Source: Magnetococcales bacterium HCHbin5 (GTDB taxonomy: Bacteria > Pseudomonadota > Magnetococcia > Magnetococcales > Magnetaquicoccaceae). Taken from it: DNA of 41,211 bases. Positions within the stretch are counted from its first letter, which is position 1, and each line of letters begins with the position of its first letter. Of the stretch, positions 7,727-40,023 are shown piece after piece. The notes under the pieces are model-generated. The model was not told the DNA's origin and did no database searches. It saw only the letters and a list, made by a program, of their open reading frames with translations. A program made the position numbers and the translations under genes. The stretch covers positions 1 to 41,211 of the forward strand of contig PEAG01000025.1 in the NCBI GenBank assembly GCA_002753505.1. Direction: 5' to 3'.

Positions 7727-8968
7727 GTGAGCCTTATCGTGCAAAAATTTGGTGGAACATCCGTTGGTTCCATTGAGCGGATTCGTTCCGTTGCTGCCCG
7801 GGCCATTGCGGCTCAACAGCAGGGTCATCAGGTGGTGGTCACCGTTTCGGCCATGGCGGGGGAGACCAACCGGTTGGTGGCCTTGGTCGAAGGGATAATA
7901 GAACGCTACAACAAACGGGAGTATGATGTGGTGGTGGCGGCCGGTGAGCAGGTCTCCATCGGCTTGCTGGCCATTGCGATTGAGGCCATGGGGGCGCGGG
8001 CGCGTTCCTATCTGGGATGGCAGGTCCGTTTTTTGACCGATTCCGTCTATTCCAAGGCCCGCATTCAGGAAATTGAAGGGTTCCGCATCCGCGACGATCT
8101 GGAAAAAGGCTATATTGTTGTCATTGCCGGTTTCCAGGGCGTTGATGAAAAGGGTGACATCACCACCCTGGGTCGGGGAGGATCGGACACCTCGGCGGTG
8201 GCACTGGCCGCAGCCCTGGAGGCGGATCGGTGTGATATTTATACCGATGTGGACGGGGTCTATACCAGCGACCCCCGTATTGTCTCCTCCGCCCGCCGCT
8301 TGGCCCGCATCTCCTACGACGAAATGTTGGAAATGGCCTCCCTGGGTGCCAAGGTGTTGCAGACCCGTTCGGTGGAGTTGGCCAAAAAATACAAGGTACC
8401 CTTGCGTGTTCTCTCTTCCCTGGAGGAAGGGGAGGGCACTTTGCTGACAGAGGAAGACGAACTTATGGAAAAAGTTGTTGTTTCTGCCATCACCCACAAT
8501 CGGGATGAGGCCAAGATTACCATACTGGGTGTCCCGGACCGGCCGGGTGTGGCGGCTACGATTTTCAGTGCCCTGGCAGATGCCACCATCAATGTGGACA
8601 TGATCATCCAGAACATCTCCGAAAGCGGTGAGACGGATGTCACCTTTACCGTTCCCAGGGGAGACTACCAGCATGCCCTGGAGGTGTTGGCCATTCCGGT
8701 CAAGCAGATCGGTGCCAAGGAGGTGGTGGGCAATCGCACCATTGCCAAGGTCTCTGCGGTCGGGGTGGGGATGCGCTCCCATACCGGCGTGGCCCAGCGC
8801 ATGTTCAACGCGCTGGCCGCTGACGGCATCAATATCCAGATGATCTCCACCTCCGAAATCAAGATTTCCGTCATCCTGGATGAAAAATACATGGAGTTGG
8901 CTGTGCGTACCCTCCACGATGCCTTTGAACTGGATAAGGATGCGGGGGATCGTGTCATCGCCAAGTGA
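7727..8968 (+). CDS. lysC: Aspartate kinase
   Basis: Aspartokinase of 413 residues that phosphorylates aspartate at the head of the lysine/diaminopimelate, threonine and methionine pathways. The kinase domain starts LIVQKFGGTSVGS (3-15) and has GRGGSDTSAVALAAAL and YTDVDGVYTSDPR. Two C-terminal ACT domains (from about 265, GVPDRPGVAATIFSALA, and about 345, GVGMRSHTGVAQRMF) bind the feedback amino acid. The size and ACT layout match single-function, lysine/threonine-regulated enzymes. The GTG start follows GGTGGAG. The end overlaps cimA by 17 bp. Confidence 0.94.
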   Translation: MSLIVQKFGGTSVGSIERIRSVAARAIAAQQQGHQVVVTVSAMAGETNRLVALVEGIIERYNKREYDVVVAAGEQVSIGLLAIAIEAMGARARSYLGWQVRFLTDSVYSKARIQEIEGFRIRDDLEKGYIVVIAGFQGVDEKGDITTLGRGGSDTSAVALAAALEADRCDIYTDVDGVYTSDPRIVSSARRLARISYDEMLEMASLGAKVLQTRSVELAKKYKVPLRVLSSLEEGEGTLLTEEDELMEKVVVSAITHNRDEAKITILGVPDRPGVAATIFSALADATINVDMIIQNISESGETDVTFTVPRGDYQHALEVLAIPVKQIGAKEVVGNRTIAKVSAVGVGMRSHTGVAQRMFNALAADGINIQMISTSEIKISVILDEKYMELAVRTLHDAFELDKDAGDRVIAK

Positions 8969-10589
8969 AGCTGTTTTCCTTTATGACACCACCTTGAGAG
9001 ATGGCTCCCAAAGCGAGGACGTCAACTTTTCCGTGGTGGACAAGCTGCGTATTGCCGAACGGTTGGATGCCATTGGGATGGATTATATCGAGGGGGGTTG
9101 GCCGGGTGCCAACCCCACCGATGACGCTTTTTTCCAGGAGATCAAAAAGCATCCGCTGCGGCACAGTCGGGTGGTGGCCTTTGGTTCCACCAAACGGCCC
9201 CGGACCACGGTGCAGGAGGATCCCGTGCTGGAGCAGTTGTTGCGCACGGAGGTGGGGGTGGTCACCCTGTTCGGGAAATCCTGGACCCTGCATGTGACCG
9301 ATGCGTTGGGCATCTCGTTGCCGGAAAATTTGGCCCTCATCTTTGACTCCATCCGCTACCTGAAATCCCGTGTCGACACCCTGTTTTTTGATGCCGAGCA
9401 TTTTTTTGATGGCTATAAGGCAGATCCCGATTATGCCTTGCAGGTGTTGCAGACCGCCCGGGAGGCGGGGGCCGACTGCCTGGTTCTGTGTGACACCAAT
9501 GGGGGCTGTCTGGTGCCGGAGGTTGAGCAGATCGGTCGCCAGGTGGCCCGCTTTTGTCAACAGCAGGCCGTTGCATGGGGAATCCATTGCCATAACGATG
9601 CCGGCTTGGCGGTTGCCAACTCCCTGGCAGCCGTTGTGGCCGGGGCGACTCAGGTGCAGGGCACCGTCAATGGCATTGGTGAACGGTGCGGCAATGCCAA
9701 TTTGATCTCCATTCTGCCCATTCTCCAACTCAAAATGGGCAGGACGACCTCTGTTTCTTCCCAGCAGTTGACCCAGTTGACCCGCCTGAGCCGTTTCGTG
9801 GATGAGATTGCCAATCGGGTACCGCAGAAAAATCAACCCTTTGTCGGTACTTCTGCCTTTGCCCACAAGGGAGGGGTTCATGTGTCAGCGGTGATGAAAA
9901 ACACCTTGACCTATGAACATATTCATCCCGAACAGGTGGGCAACCAGCAAAGAATCCTGATCTCCGACCAGTCGGGACGCAGCAATTTGTTGTTCAAATT
10001 GGCGGAGTTTGGCATTACCGACCTGGATCCCCGGGATCGGCGTTTGAACCGGTTGTTGGAAGAGATCAAAGGGTTGGAGCATCGGGGGTTTCAGTTCGAT
10101 GGGGCCGAGGCCTCTTTTGAATTGCGAGCCAGGGAGATGTTTGGCATGTTGCCGGACTATTTTCAATTGCAAGGTTTTCGTGTGATCGATGAACGTCGGG
10201 GTATCGACGGCGAACGCAGCATGGGGGCTGAGGCCACGGTCAAGCTGCAAGTGGCGGGTCAGTTGATCCATCTGGTGGGTGAGGGGGCTGGTCCGGTGGA
10301 TGCGCTGCATGCGGCTTTGAGTCGTGCCCTGGAGGGATTTTATCCCCATGTCAATGAGATGGAGTTGGTGGACTACAAGGTGCGCATTCTGGGTGGGGCT
10401 GGCACGGATGCCAAAGTTCGGGTCTTGACAGAGTGGCAGGACAGTCAGCAAAATTGGGGCACGGTGGGTGTCTCGGACCACATTATTGCCGCCTCATACG
10501 ATGCCATGGTGGATGCTGTGCGCTTTAAACTATACAAAGACGGCGTTTCCCCTGTGCAGGAGAAACGGATTGGGGTTGTCGCCATTTAA
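8952..10589 (+). CDS. cimA: Citramalate synthase (CimA)
   Basis: Enzyme of the DRE-TIM family, 545 residues from the start chosen, that condenses pyruvate and acetyl-CoA to (R)-citramalate for threonine-independent isoleucine synthesis. It begins VFLYDTTLRDGSQSEDVNFS and has HCHNDAGLAVANS and GTVNGIGERCGNANL; the C-terminal LeuA-type allosteric domain spans about 400-540. The residues FLYDTTLRDGSQ and EDVNFSVVDKLRIA with the long length favour CimA over LeuA or homocitrate synthase. I chose GTG at 8952 because GGGGGAT lies just upstream; ATG at 8940 is the alternative. It starts inside lysC, 17 bp from its end. Confidence 0.88.
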   Translation: MSSPSEAVFLYDTTLRDGSQSEDVNFSVVDKLRIAERLDAIGMDYIEGGWPGANPTDDAFFQEIKKHPLRHSRVVAFGSTKRPRTTVQEDPVLEQLLRTEVGVVTLFGKSWTLHVTDALGISLPENLALIFDSIRYLKSRVDTLFFDAEHFFDGYKADPDYALQVLQTAREAGADCLVLCDTNGGCLVPEVEQIGRQVARFCQQQAVAWGIHCHNDAGLAVANSLAAVVAGATQVQGTVNGIGERCGNANLISILPILQLKMGRTTSVSSQQLTQLTRLSRFVDEIANRVPQKNQPFVGTSAFAHKGGVHVSAVMKNTLTYEHIHPEQVGNQQRILISDQSGRSNLLFKLAEFGITDLDPRDRRLNRLLEEIKGLEHRGFQFDGAEASFELRAREMFGMLPDYFQLQGFRVIDERRGIDGERSMGAEATVKLQVAGQLIHLVGEGAGPVDALHAALSRALEGFYPHVNEMELVDYKVRILGGAGTDAKVRVLTEWQDSQQNWGTVGVSDHIIAASYDAMVDAVRFKLYKDGVSPVQEKRIGVVAI

Positions 10590-10602: not shown

Positions 10603-10944
<342 letters not shown>

Positions 10945-11084: not shown

Positions 11085-11963
11085 ATGTACGGTATGAAAA
11101 GAGATTTAGGAAAGTTGTTCAAGAAGGGGGAAATTATTTTTCGCCAGGGGGAGCCGGCGGCCTGCATGTATGTGGTCCAAAAGGGCGAGGTTGAGTTGGT
11201 GGTAGAGTCCGATTTTGGCATCAAACTGTTGGCCACGCTGCAAAAGGGGGATGTGTTTGGCGAGGTTTCCCTCTTTGCGGAAAAGGTTCGCTTTGCCACC
11301 GCCCGGGCGACCCAGGATACCTGGGTGATGACTCTGGATGAAAAGTCTTTTGTCAATCGATTGCACCAGGATCCCTCGCTCGCTTTCCACATGATCCGCC
11401 AGATGGCGCATCGCATTTATGACCAGGATCAGCTGGTGATGCGGGGGTTTATTGACGAAGCCGGTCGCAGTCATGATGTGACGGGATTTGTCAGTTATAT
11501 TGACCTGGTTGCGCTGGTGGAAAAAGAGCTGACCCGCGCCAAGCGGTTATGGCAACCCCTCTCCTTTGCCATTATTGATATTGACCATTTTGATACCCTG
11601 CAGGCCCAGTTTGGTTCGGTGATCGGGGAAGATCTGCTGACCTGTCTTTGCCAAACCATCAAGGGTGTTTTGCGTCGCCAGGATGTGGTGGGCCGTTTTG
11701 GTGAAGATCAGTTTGGTCTGTTGTTGTATGAAGCGGATGGGGAGGCGGCCATCCAGGTACTGGAAAAGGTACGGCGTTCCTTTCAAAACCTTTGGGGGCG
11801 TGTGGAGCACCCGGACATTGTGGCCACCTTCAGTTGTGGCATCGCCTCCTATCCCGATTATGAGAGTTCCGCGCGCCTGCACAAAGCAGCCCACAAAGCC
11901 CTGTCCACCAGCAAGCAGGCGGGCAACCAGATCATACTGGCCGCTGCACCTGCAAAAAAATAA
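11085..11963 (+). CDS. Cyclic-nucleotide-binding domain fused to a degenerate GGDEF domain
   Basis: Soluble protein of 292 residues. Residues 1-115 form a cNMP-binding (Crp-like) beta-roll (FKKGEIIFRQGEPAACMYVVQKGEVELV, GDVFGEVSLF). Residues 130-290 form a GGDEF fold (LSFAIIDIDHFDTLQAQFG, FSCGIASYPDY). The signature is G-E-D-Q-F (206-210), so the second Gly and the metal-binding Glu are lost and diguanylate cyclase activity is unlikely. The inhibitory-site motif R197-x-x-D200 is kept six residues upstream, as in enzymes that bind c-di-GMP there. A c-di-GMP receptor or a structural role is therefore more likely than an enzyme (inference). No DNA-binding domain is present. ATG at 11094 is an alternative start. 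Confidence 0.85.
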   Translation: MYGMKRDLGKLFKKGEIIFRQGEPAACMYVVQKGEVELVVESDFGIKLLATLQKGDVFGEVSLFAEKVRFATARATQDTWVMTLDEKSFVNRLHQDPSLAFHMIRQMAHRIYDQDQLVMRGFIDEAGRSHDVTGFVSYIDLVALVEKELTRAKRLWQPLSFAIIDIDHFDTLQAQFGSVIGEDLLTCLCQTIKGVLRRQDVVGRFGEDQFGLLLYEADGEAAIQVLEKVRRSFQNLWGRVEHPDIVATFSCGIASYPDYESSARLHKAAHKALSTSKQAGNQIILAAAPAKK

Positions 11964-11998: not shown

Positions 11999-13360
11999 AT
12001 GAGGTTGTCGGCCAATAGCCGGATAGGGATTGTCGGGGGTGGTCCTTCGGGTGCCATGACCGGCTTTTTTTTGTTGGAGATGGCGGAACGGCTCGAGTTG
12101 CCGTTGGAGGTGGATATTTATGAACCCCGTGATTATAAAAAGTATGGGCCGGCGGGGTGCAACATGTGTGCGGGGGTGGTCTCTGAATCCCTGATTCAGA
12201 CCTTGGCCGCGGAGGGTATTCCGTTGCCCTCCTCCTCTGTGATTCAGAGCGGTATTGACTCTTATGTGTTGCACACCTCTGATCTGCCGGTTGTGACGAT
12301 CAACACGCCCGTGGACGAGGTGCGTATTGCGACCGTCTTTCGGGGCAGTGGTCCCAGGAAGCCGATCGGCGATCAATCCTGGAGCAGTTTTGACCATTTT
12401 TTACTGGGCATGGCCCAGCAAAAGGGGGCCAATATTGTGCCCGAGCGGGTGACCGAGTTGGCCTGGGATGAGGGACGCCCCCGACTGACGACGCGGGAGG
12501 GCAACAGCAAGAGCTATGATTTTTTGGTTGGAGCGGTCGGGGTCAACTCGGCGACGCTGGAAAAGTTTGCGGCGTTGGGGTTTTCTTTTGAGTCTCCGGC
12601 GGTGAGCAAAGGGTTTCTGTCGGAGATCTATTTGGGGGCCGAGCAGGTTCAGGCCTGTCTGGGCAGTTCGCTGCACATCTTTTTGTTGGACATTCCCCGC
12701 CTTAAATTTGCCGCGATCATTCCGAAGGTGGAATATGTGACGGTTTGTCTGTTGGGGGAGAATATTGACAAGGCGTTGATTCAGCAATTTATGGAGTCTC
12801 CGGAGGTTCGCAGCTGTTTTCCGCCGGATATGGTTTGGACCTTTGCCGACAAAAGCTGTGATCAGGGGATCGGGCAGGCCTGTCACTGTGGTCCCAAGCT
12901 GAACCTGGGTCCGGCGATCAATCCCTTTGCGGACCGGGTGGCGATGGTGGGGGATGCAGCGGTTACCCGACTGTACAAGGATGGGATCGGTGCGGCCTAC
13001 ATCACGGCCAAGGCTTGTGCGGTCACGGCCCTGTTTTTTGGTATTGCGGCCAGGGATTTTCAGGAGCATTACCAGCCTGTGATTCAGCGCATTGCGGTGG
13101 ACAACCGGATTGGTCGTTTTGTTTTCTGGATCACCTTGTTTTATCAGGAGTGGAATTTTTTGCGGCGGGGCATGGTACAGATGGTCAAGGAGGAGCAGCC
13201 CCTCTCTGGCGTCAAGCGGCGCATGAGCCGGGTTTTGTGGGATACCTTTACCGGCAGTTCCACCTATCGGGAAATTTTGATACGGGCGTTGCATCCCCGA
13301 TTTTTTTTCCATCTGTTGTCTGCCACCTTGCGGGCTTTATGGGCCCATTTACGCAAATAG
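11999..13360 (+). CDS. FAD-dependent oxidoreductase of the geranylgeranyl reductase type
   Basis: Flavoprotein of 453 residues. The N-terminal dinucleotide fold IGIVGGGPSGAMTG (9-22) and the later RVAMVGDAAVTRLYKDGIGAAYITAK segment are those of the geranylgeranyl-reductase/FixC-like family. An early Cys cluster (GCNMCAGVV) matches the PxxYxxxxCGGG-like region of that family only loosely. Members reduce isoprenoid chains or act in other redox steps; the substrate cannot be given here. The C-terminal part from about 370 is hydrophobic and basic and may touch the membrane. GAGGTGA precedes the ATG. The M48 protease gene follows 10 bp later. Confidence 0.75.
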   Translation: MRLSANSRIGIVGGGPSGAMTGFFLLEMAERLELPLEVDIYEPRDYKKYGPAGCNMCAGVVSESLIQTLAAEGIPLPSSSVIQSGIDSYVLHTSDLPVVTINTPVDEVRIATVFRGSGPRKPIGDQSWSSFDHFLLGMAQQKGANIVPERVTELAWDEGRPRLTTREGNSKSYDFLVGAVGVNSATLEKFAALGFSFESPAVSKGFLSEIYLGAEQVQACLGSSLHIFLLDIPRLKFAAIIPKVEYVTVCLLGENIDKALIQQFMESPEVRSCFPPDMVWTFADKSCDQGIGQACHCGPKLNLGPAINPFADRVAMVGDAAVTRLYKDGIGAAYITAKACAVTALFFGIAARDFQEHYQPVIQRIAVDNRIGRFVFWITLFYQEWNFLRRGMVQMVKEEQPLSGVKRRMSRVLWDTFTGSSTYREILIRALHPRFFFHLLSATLRALWAHLRK

Positions 13361-14696: not shown

Positions 14697-15160
14697 CGGG
14701 CGCGCTTTCACCGAAGCCCATTTGCTGCGCAAATGGGCGCAGCGCGCCCAAAACGCCCCGCAGGGGCACTCCTGGAGGGCGGCAGCCCGACTGAGAGCGG
14801 GCAAAATTGGGCATGGCCTGGAAAAAAAACCGATCCTGGCCTTGTGTCAAACGAAAAGCGCAATACGATAAAGCGTAATACGATAAAGCGTAATACGATA
14901 AAGCGTAATACGATAAAGCGCAATATGATAAAGCGTAATATCCAAAGGTTCTGGTTTTTTATCCAAATATTTTCCACGACATAACCGTGCGAGTCGGGCT
15001 GCCGCCCTCCCAAGGTCGCCCCTGCGGGGCGGTTTTGTGCGCGTTACGCCAATTTTCTGCGAAAATTGGCTTTGGGAAAACGCGCAGTTCATGCAGGGGC
15101 TTTGCCCCTGCACCCCACCGGGGACCGTGACGGTCCCCGGACCCCTGCAATCGTTTAAAG
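14622..15160. repeat. Full-length composite palindromic element, copy 3, with an internal expansion
   Basis: Alpha-type arm on the left and beta-type arm on the right (hairpin 15048-15070, stem GCCAATTTTC), the same orientation as copy 2. The left end overlaps the M48 protease reading frame. The centre is lengthened by a 15-bp minisatellite, and the right end is the first unit of a 90-bp tandem array. The element fills the gap between two convergent genes; the open frames through it are low-complexity translations of repeats. Confidence 0.9.
14855..14941. repeat. 15-bp minisatellite
   Basis: Five full units of AAAGCGYAATAYGAT (14855-14929) followed by 12 bases of a sixth. The units differ only at C/T positions. 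The array sits in the non-palindromic centre of element copy 3 and is absent from the other three full copies. Confidence 0.9.
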
Positions 15161-15440
15161 AATGGAAAAACACGCAGTTCATGCAGGGGCTTTGCCCCTG
15201 CACCCCACCGGGGACCGTGACGGTCCCCGGACCCCTGCAATCGTTTAAAGAATGGAAAAACACGCAGTTCATGCAGGGGCTTTGCCCCTGCACCCCACCG
15301 GGGACCGTGACGGTCCCCGGACCCCTGCAATCGTTTAAAGAATGGAAAAACGCGCAGTTCATGCAGGGGCTTTGCCCCTGCACCCCACCGGGGACCGTGA
15401 CGGTCCCCGGACCCCTGCAATCGTTTAAAGAACAGGAAAA
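15081..15440. repeat. 90-bp tandem array of the element end-unit
   Basis: Four units with exact 90-bp spacing (starting 15081, 15171, 15261, 15351). Each holds GCAGTTCATGCAGGGGC, TTT, GCCCCTGCA, the GGGGACCGTGACGGTCCCC core, CCCCTGCAATCGTTTAAAG and an A-rich linker. They are almost identical (CGCGCAG versus CACGCAG at the junction), so the amplification is recent or kept uniform by conversion. The array ends 15 bp before the hlyD-type stop codon. Confidence 0.93.
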
Positions 15441-15444
15441 CGGC

Positions 15445-16845
15445 CTACGGCTCCCGCAAACTTTCGCTGAAAGAACGGGTAATGGGATTGAGAATATAGG
15501 AGGCAATACTGCGAGACCCCACCTTGATCTCCGCATTCAAGGTCATGCCACGAATCAACCGAATCCCCTCCGGCAAATTGTACAGCTTGGTGCTCAACAA
15601 CTCGATACGCCCGGTGTGAACCGCACCCACCCCCTTCTCCTTGCCACCACCACCGCCCTCCTCCTTGCTGTTGGGAGACTCCCCGCCACCAAAAGATTCC
15701 TGGCTGACATAACGGAGACGCCCCTCCAGAGAACCATGCCGCTGATAGGGGAAGGCATCAATCTTGATCACAACCTTGTCACCCACCTTGATATAACCAA
15801 TATCCCGCGAAGGAATCATCACCTCGGCCACAAACACCGCATCCGAAGGGACAATGGTGATCAACAACTCCGCCCCCTGCAACACCGCCCCAGCCGAACG
15901 CTTCGCCACCGACAACACCACCCCATCCACCGGAGCCGTCAACGCTTCAAAATCGGTAATTCGCTTGGCCTTGGTCACCGATTCGTCCACCTTGGCCAAC
16001 TCGGTACGCGCCACCACCAGATTGTCCAACACCTGCCGGGCCCAATCATCGATAAAGGTCTGCCGCTCCGCCTTCTTGGAGAGCAGATTGTGCTGCAACT
16101 CCACCAGATGGTTGACCGCCAACCGATAATCCTGCTCGGCACGAATCCGACTGCTCTGGGAATCCTGATATTGCAGATTGGTACCCGTGCCAGACTTGGC
16201 CAGATCCCGCCGCTTTCCCTCGACATCCCGGTTGATCTCCATCAACTTGGCCAGATGGGTGCGATTCTCCTCCGTGGTGCGAATATTGGCCTGAAACCCT
16301 TGAATCTCTTCGTCAAACATACGCAACCGCGACTGATACTGAGAACGCCGCTGATGCAACAACGCAGCCTGCAACCGCTCGTCTGCATTGGCCTGCGCGT
16401 CTGCCACAAACTCGGTATCGTTGGCCTCACTCTCCAAACGGCGAATCTGCGCCAGCAAAGCCTGCTGCTGCACCAACAAGGCCGCCAAATCCGCCCGGGC
16501 AAAAGTGGGATCAAAGGTTGCCAACACCTGCCCCTTTTGCACCAGATCACCCGCCTTCACCTTCATTTCACGAATGATCGAACGATCCACCGCCTGCAGC
16601 TGGATCGGGGTGGCATCGGTGGTCAATTGACCACTGCCGGTCACGACAATATCGGTGTCAGCCACCGCAGCAATCACCACCATCGCAACAAACATGGCCA
16701 GAATCAGATAATAGGTTCCCATCATGATCGCGGGAGGCTCCACCTCCGTCACCACACCGATACCAGCCTGGAAAGGGATGGCATCTGCGGTAACCTTCTT
16801 TTTTGCGAGACGTTTCAGGGGAAGTTTGATAATAGAAAATGCCAT
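15445..16845 (-). CDS. HlyD-type membrane fusion protein of a type I secretion system
   Basis: Periplasmic adaptor of 466 residues that would link an inner-membrane ABC exporter to a TolC-like channel. It has a cytoplasmic N-terminus, one membrane helix at about 44-67 (YLILAMFVAMVVIAAV), a first lipoyl half (VDRSIIREMKVKAGDLVQKGQVLATFDP), a long coiled-coil hairpin (about 125-300), the second lipoyl half (LTAPVDGVVLSV) and a beta-barrel region. A Gly/Glu/Lys-rich insertion (ESFGGGESPNSKEEGGGGG) lies near residue 400. No ABC partner or tolC is adjacent; the best partner in the window is the ABC gene at 26106-28277. The promoter should lie in 16846-17094. Confidence 0.88.
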   Translation of the reverse strand: MAFSIIKLPLKRLAKKKVTADAIPFQAGIGVVTEVEPPAIMMGTYYLILAMFVAMVVIAAVADTDIVVTGSGQLTTDATPIQLQAVDRSIIREMKVKAGDLVQKGQVLATFDPTFARADLAALLVQQQALLAQIRRLESEANDTEFVADAQANADERLQAALLHQRRSQYQSRLRMFDEEIQGFQANIRTTEENRTHLAKLMEINRDVEGKRRDLAKSGTGTNLQYQDSQSSRIRAEQDYRLAVNHLVELQHNLLSKKAERQTFIDDWARQVLDNLVVARTELAKVDESVTKAKRITDFEALTAPVDGVVLSVAKRSAGAVLQGAELLITIVPSDAVFVAEVMIPSRDIGYIKVGDKVVIKIDAFPYQRHGSLEGRLRYVSQESFGGGESPNSKEEGGGGGKEKGVGAVHTGRIELLSTKLYNLPEGIRLIRGMTLNAEIKVGSRSIASYILNPITRSFSESLREP

Positions 16846-17033
16846 GTTCGATTTATTTCAATTCCAGTCGGAAGGTACAGCAGAGCCAAAGAGGATTTCT
16901 GCTTTGGTAAAAATTTAGTACGCCCGCGATCAGCCGTTCCAGATGGTCCACCAACAGCACGCTCACCCTACCCATGCTGACAAAAACCAGCTATCCTGAC
17001 CTCCTTGCCTATCGTGCCCATAGTACACGTTGC

Positions 17034-32680: not shown

Positions 32681-32832
32681 AAAAACACTTGAATTGCGGT
32701 ATAAAATTTGCTTAGTATTGGAGTTGGATCCTGTACTGTCCAACACGGGTAAGCCACTGATGAGGGGTTGGCCGGTTCTGGTTGCATACCACCCGCTCAA
32801 TCTGCATCGCTGCACACACGCTGGAGAAACCG

Positions 32833-34923
32833 TTGTCTGCATCACCGTTGCCCAGATCCCTGCCCCGTATCAAGGGTATCAACGATGTCATCATGGCGTT
32901 TGGCATTATTGCCATCCTGACCATCATGATCATCCCGATGCCAACAATGATGCTGGACATACTGCTCTCCGTCAATATTTCGATGGGGATCGTCATACTT
33001 TTGACAACTGTCTACGTCCACCGCCCGTTGGAATTTTCCTCCTTTCCCAGCGTATTGCTGATGGCAACCCTGTTCCGGCTGGCCCTGAACATATCCACCA
33101 CCCGGATCATTTTGCTGCATGGCAGTGAAGGGGAGGGCGCGGCCGGGGAGGTGATTCGCTCGTTTGGTCAGTTTGTGGTGGGGGGAAACCCTGTTGTCGG
33201 GCTGATTGTTTTTTCCATTCTGGTCATCATCAACTTTATCGTCATCACCAAGGGTGCCGGGCGTATCGCCGAGGTGGCAGCCCGCTTCACCTTGGACAAA
33301 ATGCCCGGCAAGCAGATGGCCATCGATGCCGATCTGAACTCCGGTCTGGTCTCCGAGGCGGAGGCCAAGGCACGGCGGCGAGAGATTGAGGAGGAGTCGG
33401 AGTTTTTTGGGGCCATGGACGGTGCCTCCAAATTTGTCCGCGGGGATGCGGTTGCCGGCATCCTGATTGTTTTTATCAATATTATCGGCGGATTTATTGT
33501 CGGTGTGGCCCAGCAGGGGCTCTCTGCCAGTGATGCGGCCCACATTTACACCCTGCTGACCGTTGGTGATGGCCTGGTTTCGCAGATTCCGGCTCTGGTC
33601 ATCTCCACTGCCGCCGGTTTTCTGGTCACCCGGGCCTCGAACGATGAACACATGGCCGATCATGTGGCCGGTCAGATTACCGCCCAGCCCCGGGTCATTC
33701 TGCTCAGCTCCGGGGTGTTGGGGCTGTTTGCCCTGATGCCGGGCATGCCCACCCTCTCCTTTTCCATTCTGGCAGCCGGATTGGCCGTCTGGTCTCACCT
33801 GTTGTTTCGTCGCCGGGACGCACGGGAGTCGGCCGTGGCCCAGGAGGAGGTGGCACACGCCAAAGAGGAGTCCAAACAGGAAGAGCCGATTGAGAGCTTT
33901 CTGGCTCTGGACCTGCTGCGCCTGGATGTGGGGTATGGCCTGATCCCCCTGGTGGATGAGAGCCAGCAGGGCACTCTGCTGGAAAAAATTCGCGCCATCC
34001 GCAAGCAGTTTGCCATCGACATGGGGTTTGTGGTGCCCCCCATCCACATCAAGGACAATCTGCAATTCAAGCCGGGCGAGTATGCCTTTTTGATCAAGGG
34101 GGTGGAGGTGGGTCGCGGCGAGTTGCGGCCCGGTAACTTTCTCGCCATGGAGGGGGGATCCGTCACCGGCAAGGTGGAAGGGGTTGCCACCACGGAGCCC
34201 GCCTTCGGACTGCCGGCCATCTGGATCAATGGCAACGATCGGGAACGGGCGGAGATGCTCGGCTATACGGTGGTGGATGCGGCCACGGTATTGGCCACCC
34301 ATGCCACCGAAATGATTCATACCCATGCCCACGAAATGCTCAACCGGCAGGAGGTGCAGCATCTGCTGGATCTGGTCGCCAAGAATCAACCCAAACTGGT
34401 GGATGAACTGGTGCCCAATGTGGTCAACCTGGGGGGCGTTCAGAAGGTGCTGCAAGGGTTGCTGCGGGAGCGGGTTTCCATTCGCGACATGACCACCATT
34501 CTGGAAACGGTGGCCGATTATGCCAAAGTGATCAAACAACCGGCCCAGTTGGTGGAGCTGGTGCGCCAGTCCCTTTCCCGCTCTCTGGTCTCCGCCTACC
34601 TGGATGAGACGGGCGGACTCTCAGCCCTGGTATTGGGAGCGGACGCGGAAAACATGATTGCAGAGGCGATTGTGGATGGGGAGTATGGCTCTTATCTTGC
34701 TTTGGCACCTCGCTCGGCCACTCTGTTTTTGAATCGGGTACGGGACGCGGTGGAACATATCGCCTCTCAGGTGGTCCAGCCTGTCATTTTGACGGGATCC
34801 CGAGTGCGGCCTTTTGTCAAACAGGCAACAGAGGCGGCGATTCCTCATCTTGTGGTCATCTCCCAGAATGAGATACCGTCCAATATTTCCATCCATTCGC
34901 TGGGATCGGTGACACTCTCATGA
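32833..34923 (+). CDS. flhA: Flagellar export gate protein FlhA
   Basis: Integral-membrane core of the flagellar type III export apparatus, 696 residues from the chosen start, the normal FlhA length. It has about eight N-terminal membrane segments, the family signature FRLALNISTTRIIL, the FHIPEP-type loop (AAGFLVTRAS, ARRREIEEESEFFGAMDGASKFV), and a C-terminal cytoplasmic ring domain from about 340. I chose TTG at 32833 because GGAGA lies 6 bp before it and the product then begins MSASPLPRSLPRIKGINDV; the open frame to TTG 32782 has no ribosome binding site. It heads the flagellar cluster. Confidence 0.93.
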   Translation: MSASPLPRSLPRIKGINDVIMAFGIIAILTIMIIPMPTMMLDILLSVNISMGIVILLTTVYVHRPLEFSSFPSVLLMATLFRLALNISTTRIILLHGSEGEGAAGEVIRSFGQFVVGGNPVVGLIVFSILVIINFIVITKGAGRIAEVAARFTLDKMPGKQMAIDADLNSGLVSEAEAKARRREIEEESEFFGAMDGASKFVRGDAVAGILIVFINIIGGFIVGVAQQGLSASDAAHIYTLLTVGDGLVSQIPALVISTAAGFLVTRASNDEHMADHVAGQITAQPRVILLSSGVLGLFALMPGMPTLSFSILAAGLAVWSHLLFRRRDARESAVAQEEVAHAKEESKQEEPIESFLALDLLRLDVGYGLIPLVDESQQGTLLEKIRAIRKQFAIDMGFVVPPIHIKDNLQFKPGEYAFLIKGVEVGRGELRPGNFLAMEGGSVTGKVEGVATTEPAFGLPAIWINGNDRERAEMLGYTVVDAATVLATHATEMIHTHAHEMLNRQEVQHLLDLVAKNQPKLVDELVPNVVNLGGVQKVLQGLLRERVSIRDMTTILETVADYAKVIKQPAQLVELVRQSLSRSLVSAYLDETGGLSALVLGADAENMIAEAIVDGEYGSYLALAPRSATLFLNRVRDAVEHIASQVVQPVILTGSRVRPFVKQATEAAIPHLVVISQNEIPSNISIHSLGSVTLS

Positions 34924-34975
34924 TCGGTATTTTTTCCACATCCACTCCCGTCTTTCAACGCGCTGTGAGCCTATC

Positions 34976-36328
34976 ATGAAAATTTCCACATTTCAGGCGC
35001 GGGATATGCGCGAGGTGCTCAAGGAGGTCAAGGCAAAGCTGGGCGCAGATGCCGTTATCCTGTCGACCCGCAGCATTCGCAGCCCCGGAAGTGGTTTGGG
35101 CCTGGGACGCACCCTGATTGAAGTAACGGCCTGTCCCGGTCCCAACTCCCGAGGTGGCGTGGCCGACACCGGAGAGCGAAAACCGACCCCTCCTCCAGTC
35201 GCTCCAGTCGCTCCGACCGCTGAAAGGCCCGCACCGCCACCGAAACCAACCTCCTTTTCCCGGGTTGTGGATGACGAAATCTCCTACCCGGTTGCGACTA
35301 CTCCGCCGCAGAAGCGGGAGCGGGAACAGGAGCGGGAACAGGAGCGGGAACAGGAGCGGGATCGAGGGCGGGTTGAGCGGAAGGGCACAGCGGCAGAGGC
35401 TGCCTCCCCTTCGGAGGCAACGCCCCCCCGTGAGGTGGCAACAGCACGGGTCTCCCTGGAAGCTGAACCGGTTCCCGCAGCCGATGCGGAGTTGGACAGA
35501 GATCCCCTCCCTGAACCCCCGCTGTCGGCCCGGGCCTCCTTCGATTCTTCCGGCGAGTTGACCGCCCTGGATGCGGAGAGCAAGCGCAACTACAGCTGGT
35601 TGTTGATGCATGGTGTCGAAGAGCCCATTGCGCGCCGGATTGTGCTGATGGACCGGTCCGGCAAGGAGCGGGGGCTGGCGGTGGCATTTCAGCGGGCGTT
35701 AAAGTTTCGGGATCCGTTGGCCGGACCGGCCCGCGTCATCGCCCTGGTGGGTCCGACCGGGGTGGGCAAGACCACCACCCTGGCCAAGGTGGCAGCCGAT
35801 CTGATTCTTAACCGGCAGCGGTCTGTTGGCATGATCACTCTGGACACCTTCCGGGTGGGTGCGGTGGCACAACTGGAGACCTATGCCAAACTGTTGCAGG
35901 TTCGACTGGTGGTGGCTCGTGCCCCTTCGGAGGTCAAAGCGGGACTGCACTCGTTGAACCGTTGCGACTATGTGTTGGTGGATACGGTGGGCTCCAGCCC
36001 CTACAACCGCCGTCAGGTCAACTCCACCGCCACTCTGTTGCCAGACATTGGCGATGACCGGGAGGTGATTTTGTGCATGGCCGCCAATGTGCGTGAGACC
36101 GAACAGCAGGCCATCTACCGACGCTTTTCCATTTTGAAACCGACCGGATTGATTTTTACCAAGTTGGATGAAACCGTGACATATGGAGGCATTCTGAACG
36201 TGTGCATCAAGGCTGACCTGCCCTTGACCATGTATACGGACGGACAGCGGGTGCCGGAAAATCTGGGATGGATGTCTGCCAAGACCTTGTCCAAATGGTT
36301 TGCACGGGACACACAAGCGGATCTTTAA
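34976..36328 (+). CDS. flhF: Polar flagellar placement GTPase FlhF
   Basis: SRP-type GTPase of 450 residues that marks the pole where the flagellum is built. The B domain starts MKISTFQARDMREVLKEVKAKLGADAVILSTR. A long disordered linker follows (about 55-195), then the N-G domain with GPTGVGKTT (259-267), TLDTFRVGAVAQLETYA, DTVGSSPYN (DTAG in most homologues) and TKLDET. The linker contains a perfect REQE-type charged repeat coded by 12-bp units. FlhG directly follows and regulates this GTPase. Confidence 0.93.
   Translation: MKISTFQARDMREVLKEVKAKLGADAVILSTRSIRSPGSGLGLGRTLIEVTACPGPNSRGGVADTGERKPTPPPVAPVAPTAERPAPPPKPTSFSRVVDDEISYPVATTPPQKREREQEREQEREQERDRGRVERKGTAAEAASPSEATPPREVATARVSLEAEPVPAADAELDRDPLPEPPLSARASFDSSGELTALDAESKRNYSWLLMHGVEEPIARRIVLMDRSGKERGLAVAFQRALKFRDPLAGPARVIALVGPTGVGKTTTLAKVAADLILNRQRSVGMITLDTFRVGAVAQLETYAKLLQVRLVVARAPSEVKAGLHSLNRCDYVLVDTVGSSPYNRRQVNSTATLLPDIGDDREVILCMAANVRETEQQAIYRRFSILKPTGLIFTKLDETVTYGGILNVCIKADLPLTMYTDGQRVPENLGWMSAKTLSKWFARDTQADL
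35318..35365 (+). repeat. 12-bp in-frame tandem repeat inside flhF
   Basis: Three perfect GAGCGGGAACAG units (35318-35353) plus a fourth variant (GAGCGGGATCGA). They encode EREQ repeats in the disordered linker. The length is a multiple of three, so expansion or loss would not shift the frame. Confidence 0.9.
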
Positions 36329-36418
36329 TCTCCGGGAGGCAAAGGTTCGCAAGCGCGCGTTGCGGGCCGGGTAGCAGAGTTTTCGGGCCCTGCAAAAGGG
36401 GTAGCACACAGAGGACAC

Positions 36419-37381
36419 ATGATAGAAGATCTTGATAACCAGGTAGCCACACTCAAGGAACTCGCCCGCCAGAAGGCGGCGGCCGGGCCGTTCCCGCCCC
36501 TGGAGACGTCCGTCTCTCAACCCGGACTTTCACAGCGCAAAGTGCCCCATACCATGGCCATTACCAGCGGCAAGGGCGGCGTAGGGAAAACGTTGGTCAC
36601 CGTCAACCTGGCGGTTCAATATGCCCGCAAGGGGTTGAAGGTTTTGTTGATTGATGCGGATCTTGGTTTGGCCAACATTGACGTGGTACTGGGATTGAAC
36701 CCGCAGCATACCATTCAGGATGTACTGGACGGTCGCTTGACCTTGGACCAGGTGGCCATTCCCGGGCCGTTTGGGATCACGGTATTGCCGGCCGCCTCTG
36801 GTGTGGCCGAACTCAGCGATATGAATGAGGCGCAGAGAACGGCGTTCATGGACCATATTGACCATTGGAATGCGGATTTTGATGTGGTTCTGGTGGATAC
36901 CGGTGCTGGGATCTCCCCCAATGTGCGTTTTTTTGTCCTGGCTGTAGAGCGCATCATGGTGGTGGCCACCCCGGACCCGGCCAGTGTCACCGATGCCTAT
37001 GCCTTGATGAAGGTGATGTTCAACAATCATCGGGTTTCCCATTTTGATCTGGTCGTCAATCAGGTCAGGAACAATGCCGAGGCCAAGGAGGTCTATCGTA
37101 CACTCTCCCGGGTGGCAGAAAAATATCTGAATATTGGTCTGAACTATGCGGGCTTTATTCCCGACGATGTGTTACTGGTACAAGCCATTCGACAGCGCAA
37201 AACGGTCTCAGAAATGTTCCCGAATGCGCCCTCTTCAGTCGCTTTCCAGCAACTGTCGGAGAGCCTGATACGTATGTTGCAGCAAAAACGGCAAGATGAT
37301 GGGAGAATGGTCTTTTTCTGGCGGCGTTTGCTGGAAGATTCCGTTCGGAAAACGGGTACACCCATGCCGTCAAACATGTAG
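36419..37381 (+). CDS. flhG: Flagellar number regulator FlhG (FleN), MinD-like ATPase
   Basis: ATPase of 320 residues with the deviant Walker A SGKGGVGKT (50-58), DADLGLANIDVVLG, and VDTGAGISPNVRFFVLA. The extra N-terminal helix (LDNQVATLKELA) resembles the DQAxxLR activator segment of FlhG, which stimulates FlhF. FlhG limits flagellar number at the pole and, as FleN, restrains the master regulator in some bacteria. The last 40 residues (about 280-320) are basic and aromatic, fitting the membrane-binding C-terminal helix region only roughly. GAGG precedes the ATG. Confidence 0.92.
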   Translation: MIEDLDNQVATLKELARQKAAAGPFPPLETSVSQPGLSQRKVPHTMAITSGKGGVGKTLVTVNLAVQYARKGLKVLLIDADLGLANIDVVLGLNPQHTIQDVLDGRLTLDQVAIPGPFGITVLPAASGVAELSDMNEAQRTAFMDHIDHWNADFDVVLVDTGAGISPNVRFFVLAVERIMVVATPDPASVTDAYALMKVMFNNHRVSHFDLVVNQVRNNAEAKEVYRTLSRVAEKYLNIGLNYAGFIPDDVLLVQAIRQRKTVSEMFPNAPSSVAFQQLSESLIRMLQQKRQDDGRMVFFWRRLLEDSVRKTGTPMPSNM

Positions 37382-38856: not shown

Positions 38857-40023
38857 ATGATTATTTCCGGTGTCATACTGCCGGTCAAAACGGCTCCCGC
38901 CCCCGCCGCCTCAACGACCTCCCGGTTGACGGTGGGGGAGGTGTTGACGGGGCGGGTTACCCAGGTGAATGGCAACGGCCAGGGGGTGGTACGCTTCCCG
39001 GATGGCAGTGGTTTCACCTTTTCCCGTGGTCCGGCGTTGACGTTGGGGGAGCCGGTACAGGTGGAGGTGTTGCGGCTGGAACCGGAGATGGCGTTTCGGT
39101 TGCTGGCCAGCTCTTCCCAGTCGGCCTCTCAGTTGGCGGTTTCAGCGGAGCAGAGTCTGGTGCGCGCCCCGGACCTGTTTGCCAATCTGGTACGCTGGGC
39201 CGGGTTGGGCAACAGCAGCCCGGCGGAGGCAGAGGCCAGTTTGGCCAGCGGTGGCAACAGCGGCAGCGCGCAAGGTTTTGCTGTGCTGGGCAAATCTCTC
39301 GCACATCTGTTGCAGCGGGTTTTGCCCAACCTTTCGGTGCAGGGGCTGTTGGATGGTGAGGTAACGGAGTTGGTCCGTCTGCTGGAGGGTGGCTCCCGGC
39401 AGGATGTGCGGGCGGCGATTCAGCAGTTGCGGCAGGGGGCCATTGGGTTGTTGTTGGCGGAAGAGCGCGGGGTTGGGCAAGCGGCGGCGGCGGGTGCGGA
39501 GGGTTCGGATCTGGGTGCGGTGCGCAACACGATCCACCGGTTGGGTGATCTGTTGGCCATGCAGGAAATTTTGCCCCGCACGCCGCTTGCGGCGGAGGGG
39601 AATCAGCTGTTGGGGTATCGGTTGTTTTGGCTGGTGGAGGGTGGCATGGGTGAGGCCATCTGGTATCGGGAACGCCAATGGTCGGAGCCGGATCAGCAGC
39701 AGGAGCAGGAGGGAGAGTCGTCGTCGGGAGGGGGGGAGGAGAAGCGGTTCACCACGGTATTGCTCACCTTGAACATGACCAACCTGGGAGCCGTGCAATC
39801 CCGTCTTTCGTATGGGGAGGGGCTCTGTACGATCCACATTGCGGCGGAAGAGGAGGAGGCGTTGGTTGCGCTGCGCCGACGGGTTGGGGAGCTGCGTTCG
39901 GCTTTGCTGGAGGCGGAGTTGCCGATCGGGGCATTGGATTTGACCCGGTTGGTACCGGGAGAGTTGAAGGAGAAGAGGATGCGTGCGATGGGGTTGGCCA
40001 GCCATTTTTCTGCGGAGGCTTGA
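38857..40023 (+). CDS. FliK-like flagellar hook-length control protein
   Basis: A 388-residue protein with an N-terminal beta-rich segment (GEVLTGRVTQVNGNGQGVVRF), a long Ala/Ser/Gly/Gln-rich middle, and a C-terminal domain (about 290-375) that fits the Flg_hook family: VLLTLNMTNLGAVQSRLSYGEGLCTIHI, then AALRRRVGELRSALLEAELP-like and LDLTRLVPGEL. FliK senses hook length and switches export specificity through FlhB. The FhlB-like gene next door and its place in the cluster support this. ATG 38857 lacks a strong ribosome binding site. Confidence 0.7.
   Translation: MIISGVILPVKTAPAPAASTTSRLTVGEVLTGRVTQVNGNGQGVVRFPDGSGFTFSRGPALTLGEPVQVEVLRLEPEMAFRLLASSSQSASQLAVSAEQSLVRAPDLFANLVRWAGLGNSSPAEAEASLASGGNSGSAQGFAVLGKSLAHLLQRVLPNLSVQGLLDGEVTELVRLLEGGSRQDVRAAIQQLRQGAIGLLLAEERGVGQAAAAGAEGSDLGAVRNTIHRLGDLLAMQEILPRTPLAAEGNQLLGYRLFWLVEGGMGEAIWYRERQWSEPDQQQEQEGESSSGGGEEKRFTTVLLTLNMTNLGAVQSRLSYGEGLCTIHIAAEEEEALVALRRRVGELRSALLEAELPIGALDLTRLVPGELKEKRMRAMGLASHFSAEA

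Follow-up and report, generated by a model that had tools for sequence, protein, structure and literature searches.

A gene in the genome of the Magnetococcales bacterium HCHbin5 encodes a cyclic-nucleotide-binding (cNMP) domain followed by a GGDEF domain with an altered signature motif, and it raises the question of whether a GGDEF domain that cannot make cyclic di-GMP (c-di-GMP) might still bind it. A sequence-only reading had proposed exactly this, i.e., that the active site (A-site) was lost, that the inhibitory site (I-site) was kept, and that the protein would link two second messengers. We analyzed the gene within its window, i.e., the whole stretch of 41,211 nucleotides (contig PEAG01000025.1, positions 1 to 41,211), and across related genomes. 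The host genome (G000) is 99.45% complete.

Domains, fold and relatives

The gene and its parts are listed below, with residue counts taken over 32 orthologues.

11085..11963, + strand: cNMP-binding/degenerate-GGDEF protein (ORF, 292 aa plus stop)
11118..11369, + strand: cNMP-binding domain, residues 12-95 (Pfam PF00027, E 2.3e-21)
11262..11264, + strand: E60, equivalent of the ribose-binding Glu (Glu in 32/32)
11289..11291, + strand: R69, equivalent of the phosphate-binding Arg (Arg in 31/32)
11370..11510, + strand: linker between the two domains, residues 96-142, with a putative dimer/transmission helix
11511..11927, + strand: degenerate GGDEF domain, residues 143-281 (PF00990, E 1.9e-24)
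11535..11537, + strand: R151, equivalent of PleD R313, second I-site arginine (Arg in 32/32)
11673..11684, + strand: primary I-site, R197-R-Q-D200 (R in 31/32, D in 32/32)
11700..11714, + strand: degenerate signature GEDQF, residues 206-210 (position 4 never E among 32)

Both domain matches exceeded the curated Pfam cut-offs, that of the GGDEF domain with 86.7 bits against 23.8. The true start may lie at Met4, where four named relatives (from Magnetococcales metagenome-assembled genomes and Candidatus Magnetaquicoccus inordinatus) show ATG (two) or GTG (two); these four were not added to the count of 32. When the GGDEF domain was modelled alone from eight sequences, the pLDDT was 87.7, and the model aligned (VIA-align) with the c-di-GMP complex 3ign with a Z score of 22.6 (1.9 Å across 152 residues) and with PleD (2wb4) with a Z score of 21.7. 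This half of the protein is thus predicted to keep an intact GGDEF fold. A full-length model built from five close sequences reached a pLDDT of only 44.3 and was excluded from claims about the fold. The helix that it placed at residues 97-121 has the same low confidence (pLDDT 44); together with a CRP-like layout, it suggests that the linker may hold a dimer/transmission helix. No recognisable output domain was found in the 292-aa protein.

In the N-terminal half, the profile match was accompanied by the cassette Glu and Arg expected of a cNMP-binding domain, i.e., E60 and R69, whose equivalents in CRP-type domains contact the ribose and the phosphate, respectively. The closest matches among solved structures were cGMP- and cAMP-dependent kinases. 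The residue following R69 was F in 22, I in 9 and Y in 1 of the 32 orthologues; in CRP, PKG and PKA this position is occupied by Ser, Thr or Ala. A bulky residue here is unusual, so that cAMP and cGMP are putative ligands only. The genome contained 8 matches to class III cyclases, 27 to GGDEF domains (the present protein included) and 11 to EAL domains and, since enzymes for both messengers are encoded, both a cNMP and c-di-GMP are expected in the cell.

The orthologues were collected by searching 48 genomes of the class (E 1e-30), which gave matches in 33. One (G018) was left out because its match spans the cNMP half only; its C-terminal part resembles, by eye, a receiver domain. The remaining 32 all come from Magnetococcales genomes, and 25 of them are less than 90% identical to each other. 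A profile search (E 1e-35) covered 398 genomes across the phylum, 48 of them belonging to the class, and scored five candidates in most of them. Beyond the order, the scored candidates were matches to the GGDEF half only, in 10 genomes, and none spanned the full length, although such a search could miss full-length relatives that are more distant or ranked lower. A tree built from 73 GGDEF domains recovered the degenerate family as a single clade (SH-aLRT 100). Its nearest neighbours were 15 active-looking GGDEF domains, the two groups standing together with an SH-aLRT of 97; one protein of this active family (L142) has a receiver-like segment ahead of the GGDEF domain. Ratios of mean dN to mean dS among six congeners were 0.07 for the cNMP half and 0.11 for the GGDEF half, rough values because dS (1.3-1.5) was near saturation. 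As judged from these ratios, the GGDEF half is evolving under purifying selection.

Other combinations of these domains were also observed. A separate cNMP-GGDEF family occurs in 31 of the 48 genomes (e.g., G037:C1:1686862-1687818). Its members are 22-25% identical to the degenerate family, the 8 that were read carry GGEEF, and some have no phosphate arginine at the usual position. A complementary distribution of the two families was considered and rejected, 20 of the 48 genomes carrying both. Five proteins of about 330-360 aa (L115, L116, L118, L120 and L060) have a cNMP domain 43-53% identical to the present one and, by eye, a receiver-like C-terminus, and in two more (L129, L130) the same module is followed by a nucleotide-kinase-like part in one and by a hydrophobic, probably membrane segment in the other, also by eye. 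By sequence comparison, the cNMP module is joined to several partners within the order.

The active site and the I-site

The signature motif reads GEDQF at residues 206-210, as the sequence-only reading had stated, and the rest of the A-site has changed with it. At the position of PleD Glu371, the fourth residue of the signature, no orthologue has Glu (R in 25, Q in 6, S in 1). The equivalent of Asn335 is Asn in 0/32 (with one gap), that of D344 is Asp in 1/32, and that of Gly369 is Gly in 2/32; in the 292-aa protein itself, Gln173 and Glu182 replace Asn335 and Asp344. In the nearest active family, by contrast, the A-site positions checked were intact in 14 or 15 of 15. Neither GG(D/E)EF nor the guanine-binding Asn and Asp, which we required of an active diguanylate cyclase, are present in the 292-aa protein, and its GGDEF domain can probably no longer make c-di-GMP.

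The I-site shows the opposite pattern. The earlier claim that the RxxD motif lies at the exact distance found in PleD was borne out by alignment with 2wb4: from R197 to the first G of GEDQF there are 9 residues, as from PleD R359 to G368, and the subdivision of this interval (D362 three residues after R359, G368 six after D362) is identical. Loss of RxxD in orthologues, which had been named as an observation that would count against the idea, was not seen when the alignment was made: D200 was Asp in every orthologue and R197 was Arg in all except one (L030), which has Leu. Among the 154 columns of the GGDEF domain, those of R151 and D200 show no variation, and that of R197 comes 12th in rank.

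How much this retention is worth was assessed against a control from the same genome. After removal of two truncated duplicate rows from an initial 22 of 23, RxxD was present in 20 of the 21 different GGDEF domains that are intact, and R197 and D200 were likewise kept in 15 of 15 members of the nearest active family. We therefore rejected retention of RxxD alone as informative, a weakness that the sequence-only reading had overlooked; being nearly universal in the intact GGDEF domains of this genome, the motif is perhaps retained in part for structural reasons. Four other degenerate GGDEF domains in the genome have the motifs GEETF, STERM, DQNDF and AGDSF (loci include G000:C174:31044-32896, G000:C126:38534-38971 and L018), and RxxD is present in three of the four. 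The string GRFGEDQF also occurs in four otherwise unlike proteins of other groups (L054, L055, L056 and L057), three of them with RxxD ahead of it; these were probably found because the string was itself a search pattern.

A second arginine, also overlooked earlier, proved more telling. R151 aligns with PleD R313, which we take to be the second arginine of the I-site, and presumably with WspR R198. It is Arg in all 32 orthologues, whereas its equivalent is Arg in only 8 of 15 members of the nearest active family and in 7 of the 21 intact GGDEF domains of the genome. In WspR, R198 reportedly completes the I-site from the neighbouring domain, and with either of the two I-site arginines (R242 or R198) mutated the protein was nucleotide-free (PMC2270323). 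A further position, the equivalent of PleD R390, is K228 in this protein and is variable (K in 20/32); by spacing, it corresponds to R794, which belongs to the secondary site of SgmT (PMC3509222). A live I-site is favoured because active-site residues have drifted while the three I-site residues (R197, D200 and R151) stay fixed, and because one of the three is kept more strictly than in active relatives.

Neighbouring genes and a candidate partner

The gene lies in a conserved cluster, with the following neighbours.

7727..8968, + strand: aspartate kinase lysC, ahead of cimA in the conserved cluster
8880..10589, + strand: citramalate synthase cimA (TIGR00977, 704 bits)
10606..10944, + strand: PII nitrogen regulator, GlnB/GlnK family (PF00543)
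11999..13360, + strand: FAD oxidoreductase, weakly geranylgeranyl-reductase-like (TIGR02032, 26.5 bits against a cut-off of 158.8)

That the gene stands behind PII had been noticed before, and this arrangement is a real synteny: in the window 140 bases separate the end of PII from the ORF, and in 28 of 32 loci a PII gene of the same orientation immediately precedes the cNMP-GGDEF gene, at a distance of 14-420 nt. No PII was found in the flanks examined of the four most divergent orthologues (f4, f5, f8 and f9). When 19 longer PII-bearing loci from 18 genomes were read, cimA stood ahead of PII in 18 and lysC in 17, the misses being at contig ends. A link between PII and GGDEF proteins has a precedent in Azospirillum, where GGDEF is reported as a recurring domain among the targets of the PII protein GlnZ, and a diguanylate cyclase was pulled down by GlnZ (PMC7646526). 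Protein contact was demonstrated in that case, whereas in Magnetococcales the two are linked as neighbouring genes.

On the other side, 19 of 32 loci have the FAD oxidoreductase as the next gene in the same orientation, 15-213 nt beyond the cNMP-GGDEF gene. It was not seen to adjoin the gene in the other 13, five of which offer less than 430 nt of sequence on that side, the rest being without the oxidoreductase. In one congener (G024), the M48 peptidase gene comes right after PII, and both the cNMP-GGDEF gene and the oxidoreductase are missing at the locus. Scored by hand in the 48 genomes, with at least 57% identity taken as presence of the oxidoreductase, both genes occurred in 30, cNMP-GGDEF only in 2 (G019 and G046), the oxidoreductase only in 3 (G016, G017 and G047), and neither in 13 (Fisher P 2.6e-7, treating genomes as independent and ignoring relatedness). 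Completeness is 69-80% in the five genomes that carry one gene without the other. The identity of the enzyme as a geranylgeranyl reductase was not adopted, its score being far below the cut-off, and no close solved relative was found (best E 0.15).

To this we can add 59 oxidoreductase loci that do not adjoin the cNMP-GGDEF gene, of which 14 belong to the group of the window's oxidoreductase and 45 to a second group, 43-52% identical. In the second group, a cNMP gene lay within 500 nt in 34 of the 45 loci (among L195-L252), in 32 of these 34 downstream on the same strand; where there was room of 400 nt on both sides, the figure was 32 of 37. The chance of such a neighbour is about 0.1% per locus, a rough estimate that used the four cNMP matches of the window's genome and, like our other chance estimates, treated columns or genomes as independent. 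The window genome's own second-group oxidoreductase (L194, on G000:C144) is separated from a cNMP gene by 753 nt. In the cNMP partners of the second group, the equivalent of E60 was Glu in 20/34 and that of R69 was Arg in 31/34. No cNMP gene was found within 500 nt in any of the 14 non-adjoining loci of the first group, which argues against a fixed partnership. From these gene orders, a pairing of cNMP and flavoenzyme genes seems to be repeated across Magnetococcales. Because members of the flavoenzyme family are encoded beside cNMP-domain proteins again and again, the oxidoreductase, which had escaped earlier notice, is the strongest candidate for the protein's output. No paper on an oxidoreductase with a cNMP protein was found in the open-access literature.

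Elsewhere in the window, a 647-aa ORF (15037-16980), flanked by the M48 peptidase gene and an ABC transporter gene, gave no significant Pfam or NCBIfam match. A flagellar group (32782-37381 and 38857-40023) encodes a FHIPEP-family export protein, an SRP54-type GTPase, a ParA/MinD-type ATPase and a FliK-type hook-length protein, the first three presumably FlhA-, FlhF- and FlhG-like.

The favoured explanation and its alternatives

We consider it probable, though with considerable reserve, that the protein is a dead-cyclase receptor for c-di-GMP joined to a sensor of cAMP or cGMP; as far as alignments can tell, the earlier interpretation is thus supported. In the mechanism that we propose, a dimer of c-di-GMP would bridge R197 and D200 of one GGDEF domain and R151 of its partner, and a cNMP bound to the N-domain would shift the linker helix and change the pairing of the two GGDEF domains, so that each nucleotide would influence the action of the other. 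Having no recognisable output domain, the protein would work through contact with another protein, the FAD oxidoreductase of the adjacent gene being the likeliest target and PII a possible one. The strict conservation of R151 counts for the receptor explanation. Against it stand the presence of RxxD in nearly all intact GGDEF domains of the genome, the loss of the I-site arginine in L030, the variability at R390, and the absence of PII near the four most divergent orthologues; against the proposed partner stand the 13 loci where the oxidoreductase was not seen to adjoin and the 14 non-adjoining loci lacking a cNMP gene.

Known proteins match parts of this design. CdgA of Bdellovibrio, a dead GGDEF domain with RxxD, binds c-di-GMP with a Kd of about 2 μM (PMC3271064), and SgmT of Myxococcus binds it via its I-site (PMC3509222). 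The present protein resembles these two and PopA of Caulobacter in having lost the A-site and kept RxxD, and it has the second I-site arginine as well; the receptor role reported for them would here be an extension by analogy. It differs from all three in its cNMP fusion, the PII gene upstream, Arg or Gln as the fourth motif residue, and the absence of a kinase or receiver domain. XC_0249 of Xanthomonas also combines cNMP and GGDEF domains and ties a cyclic mononucleotide to c-di-GMP signalling, but it is a catalytically active, cGMP-activated diguanylate cyclase (PMC3770947), whereas the present family has lost the A-site. In Bd1971 of Bdellovibrio a cNMP domain likewise controls a c-di-GMP domain, in that case an active EAL phosphodiesterase rather than a receptor (PMC8846402). 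With PleD and WspR there is a match of R197-D200 and R151 to R359-D362 and R313 of PleD, although in those proteins the I-site serves feedback inhibition of an active enzyme (PMC2270323).

Four other explanations were weighed. The most serious, although we think it unlikely, is that the GGDEF domain binds no nucleotide, that RxxD and R151 serve contacts within the fold or the dimer, and that the domain is a dimerisation or docking module driven by the cNMP domain alone, perhaps docking PII. The near-universality of RxxD in the genome's intact GGDEF domains, its presence in three of the four other degenerate ones and the GlnZ targets of Azospirillum are all in keeping with this; however, if its role were purely structural, R151 would not be expected to be invariant here and yet present in only a minority of intact domains of the genome and about half of the nearest active family. 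We find it improbable that the degenerate A-site binds GTP or another guanine nucleotide, making the domain an allosteric sensor like FimX, which has a degenerate motif and is reported to be activated by GTP (PMC8846402). The third motif residue is still Asp in 29/32 and the equivalent of K442 still Lys in 24/32, but Asn335, D344 and Gly369 have been almost entirely replaced.

That the protein might still be a weak diguanylate cyclase is very improbable indeed: VCA0965 makes c-di-GMP with an AGDEF motif (PMC3974145), so that some degenerate motifs are active, but AGDEF retains the two acidic residues, whereas here Glu371 is R, Q or S in 32/32 and the guanine-binding residues are lost as well. 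There is, in our estimation, only slight likelihood that c-di-GMP is bound as we propose while the N-domain responds to a ligand other than cAMP or cGMP, an option for which the bulky residue after the phosphate arginine speaks, and against which stand the almost invariant Glu60 and Arg69 and the structural matches to cyclic-nucleotide-dependent kinases.

The dead-cyclase receptor, if this is what the protein is, represents a known kind of receptor in a new form and not a new kind of system. Crosstalk between cNMP and GGDEF domains is already known in active enzymes, as are dead GGDEF receptors; the combination is the new part, and a search of the open-access literature found no described protein with a cNMP sensor and a dead, I-site-bearing GGDEF domain. 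If both messengers bind, the protein would be a direct coincidence detector for cAMP or cGMP and c-di-GMP. Its place behind PII in the lysC-cimA-PII cluster makes a link with nitrogen state directly testable, and its pairing with an uncharacterised flavoenzyme likewise. A more ambitious extension, which we regard as speculative and doubtful, is a hub with three inputs, i.e., an adaptor that would read cAMP or cGMP and c-di-GMP, contact PII (2-oxoglutarate, ATP/ADP) and gate the FAD oxidoreductase. If this were true, nitrogen state and two second messengers would converge on one flavoenzyme, and cNMP-gated flavoenzymes would form a wider module, the same enzyme family pairing with plain cNMP proteins elsewhere.
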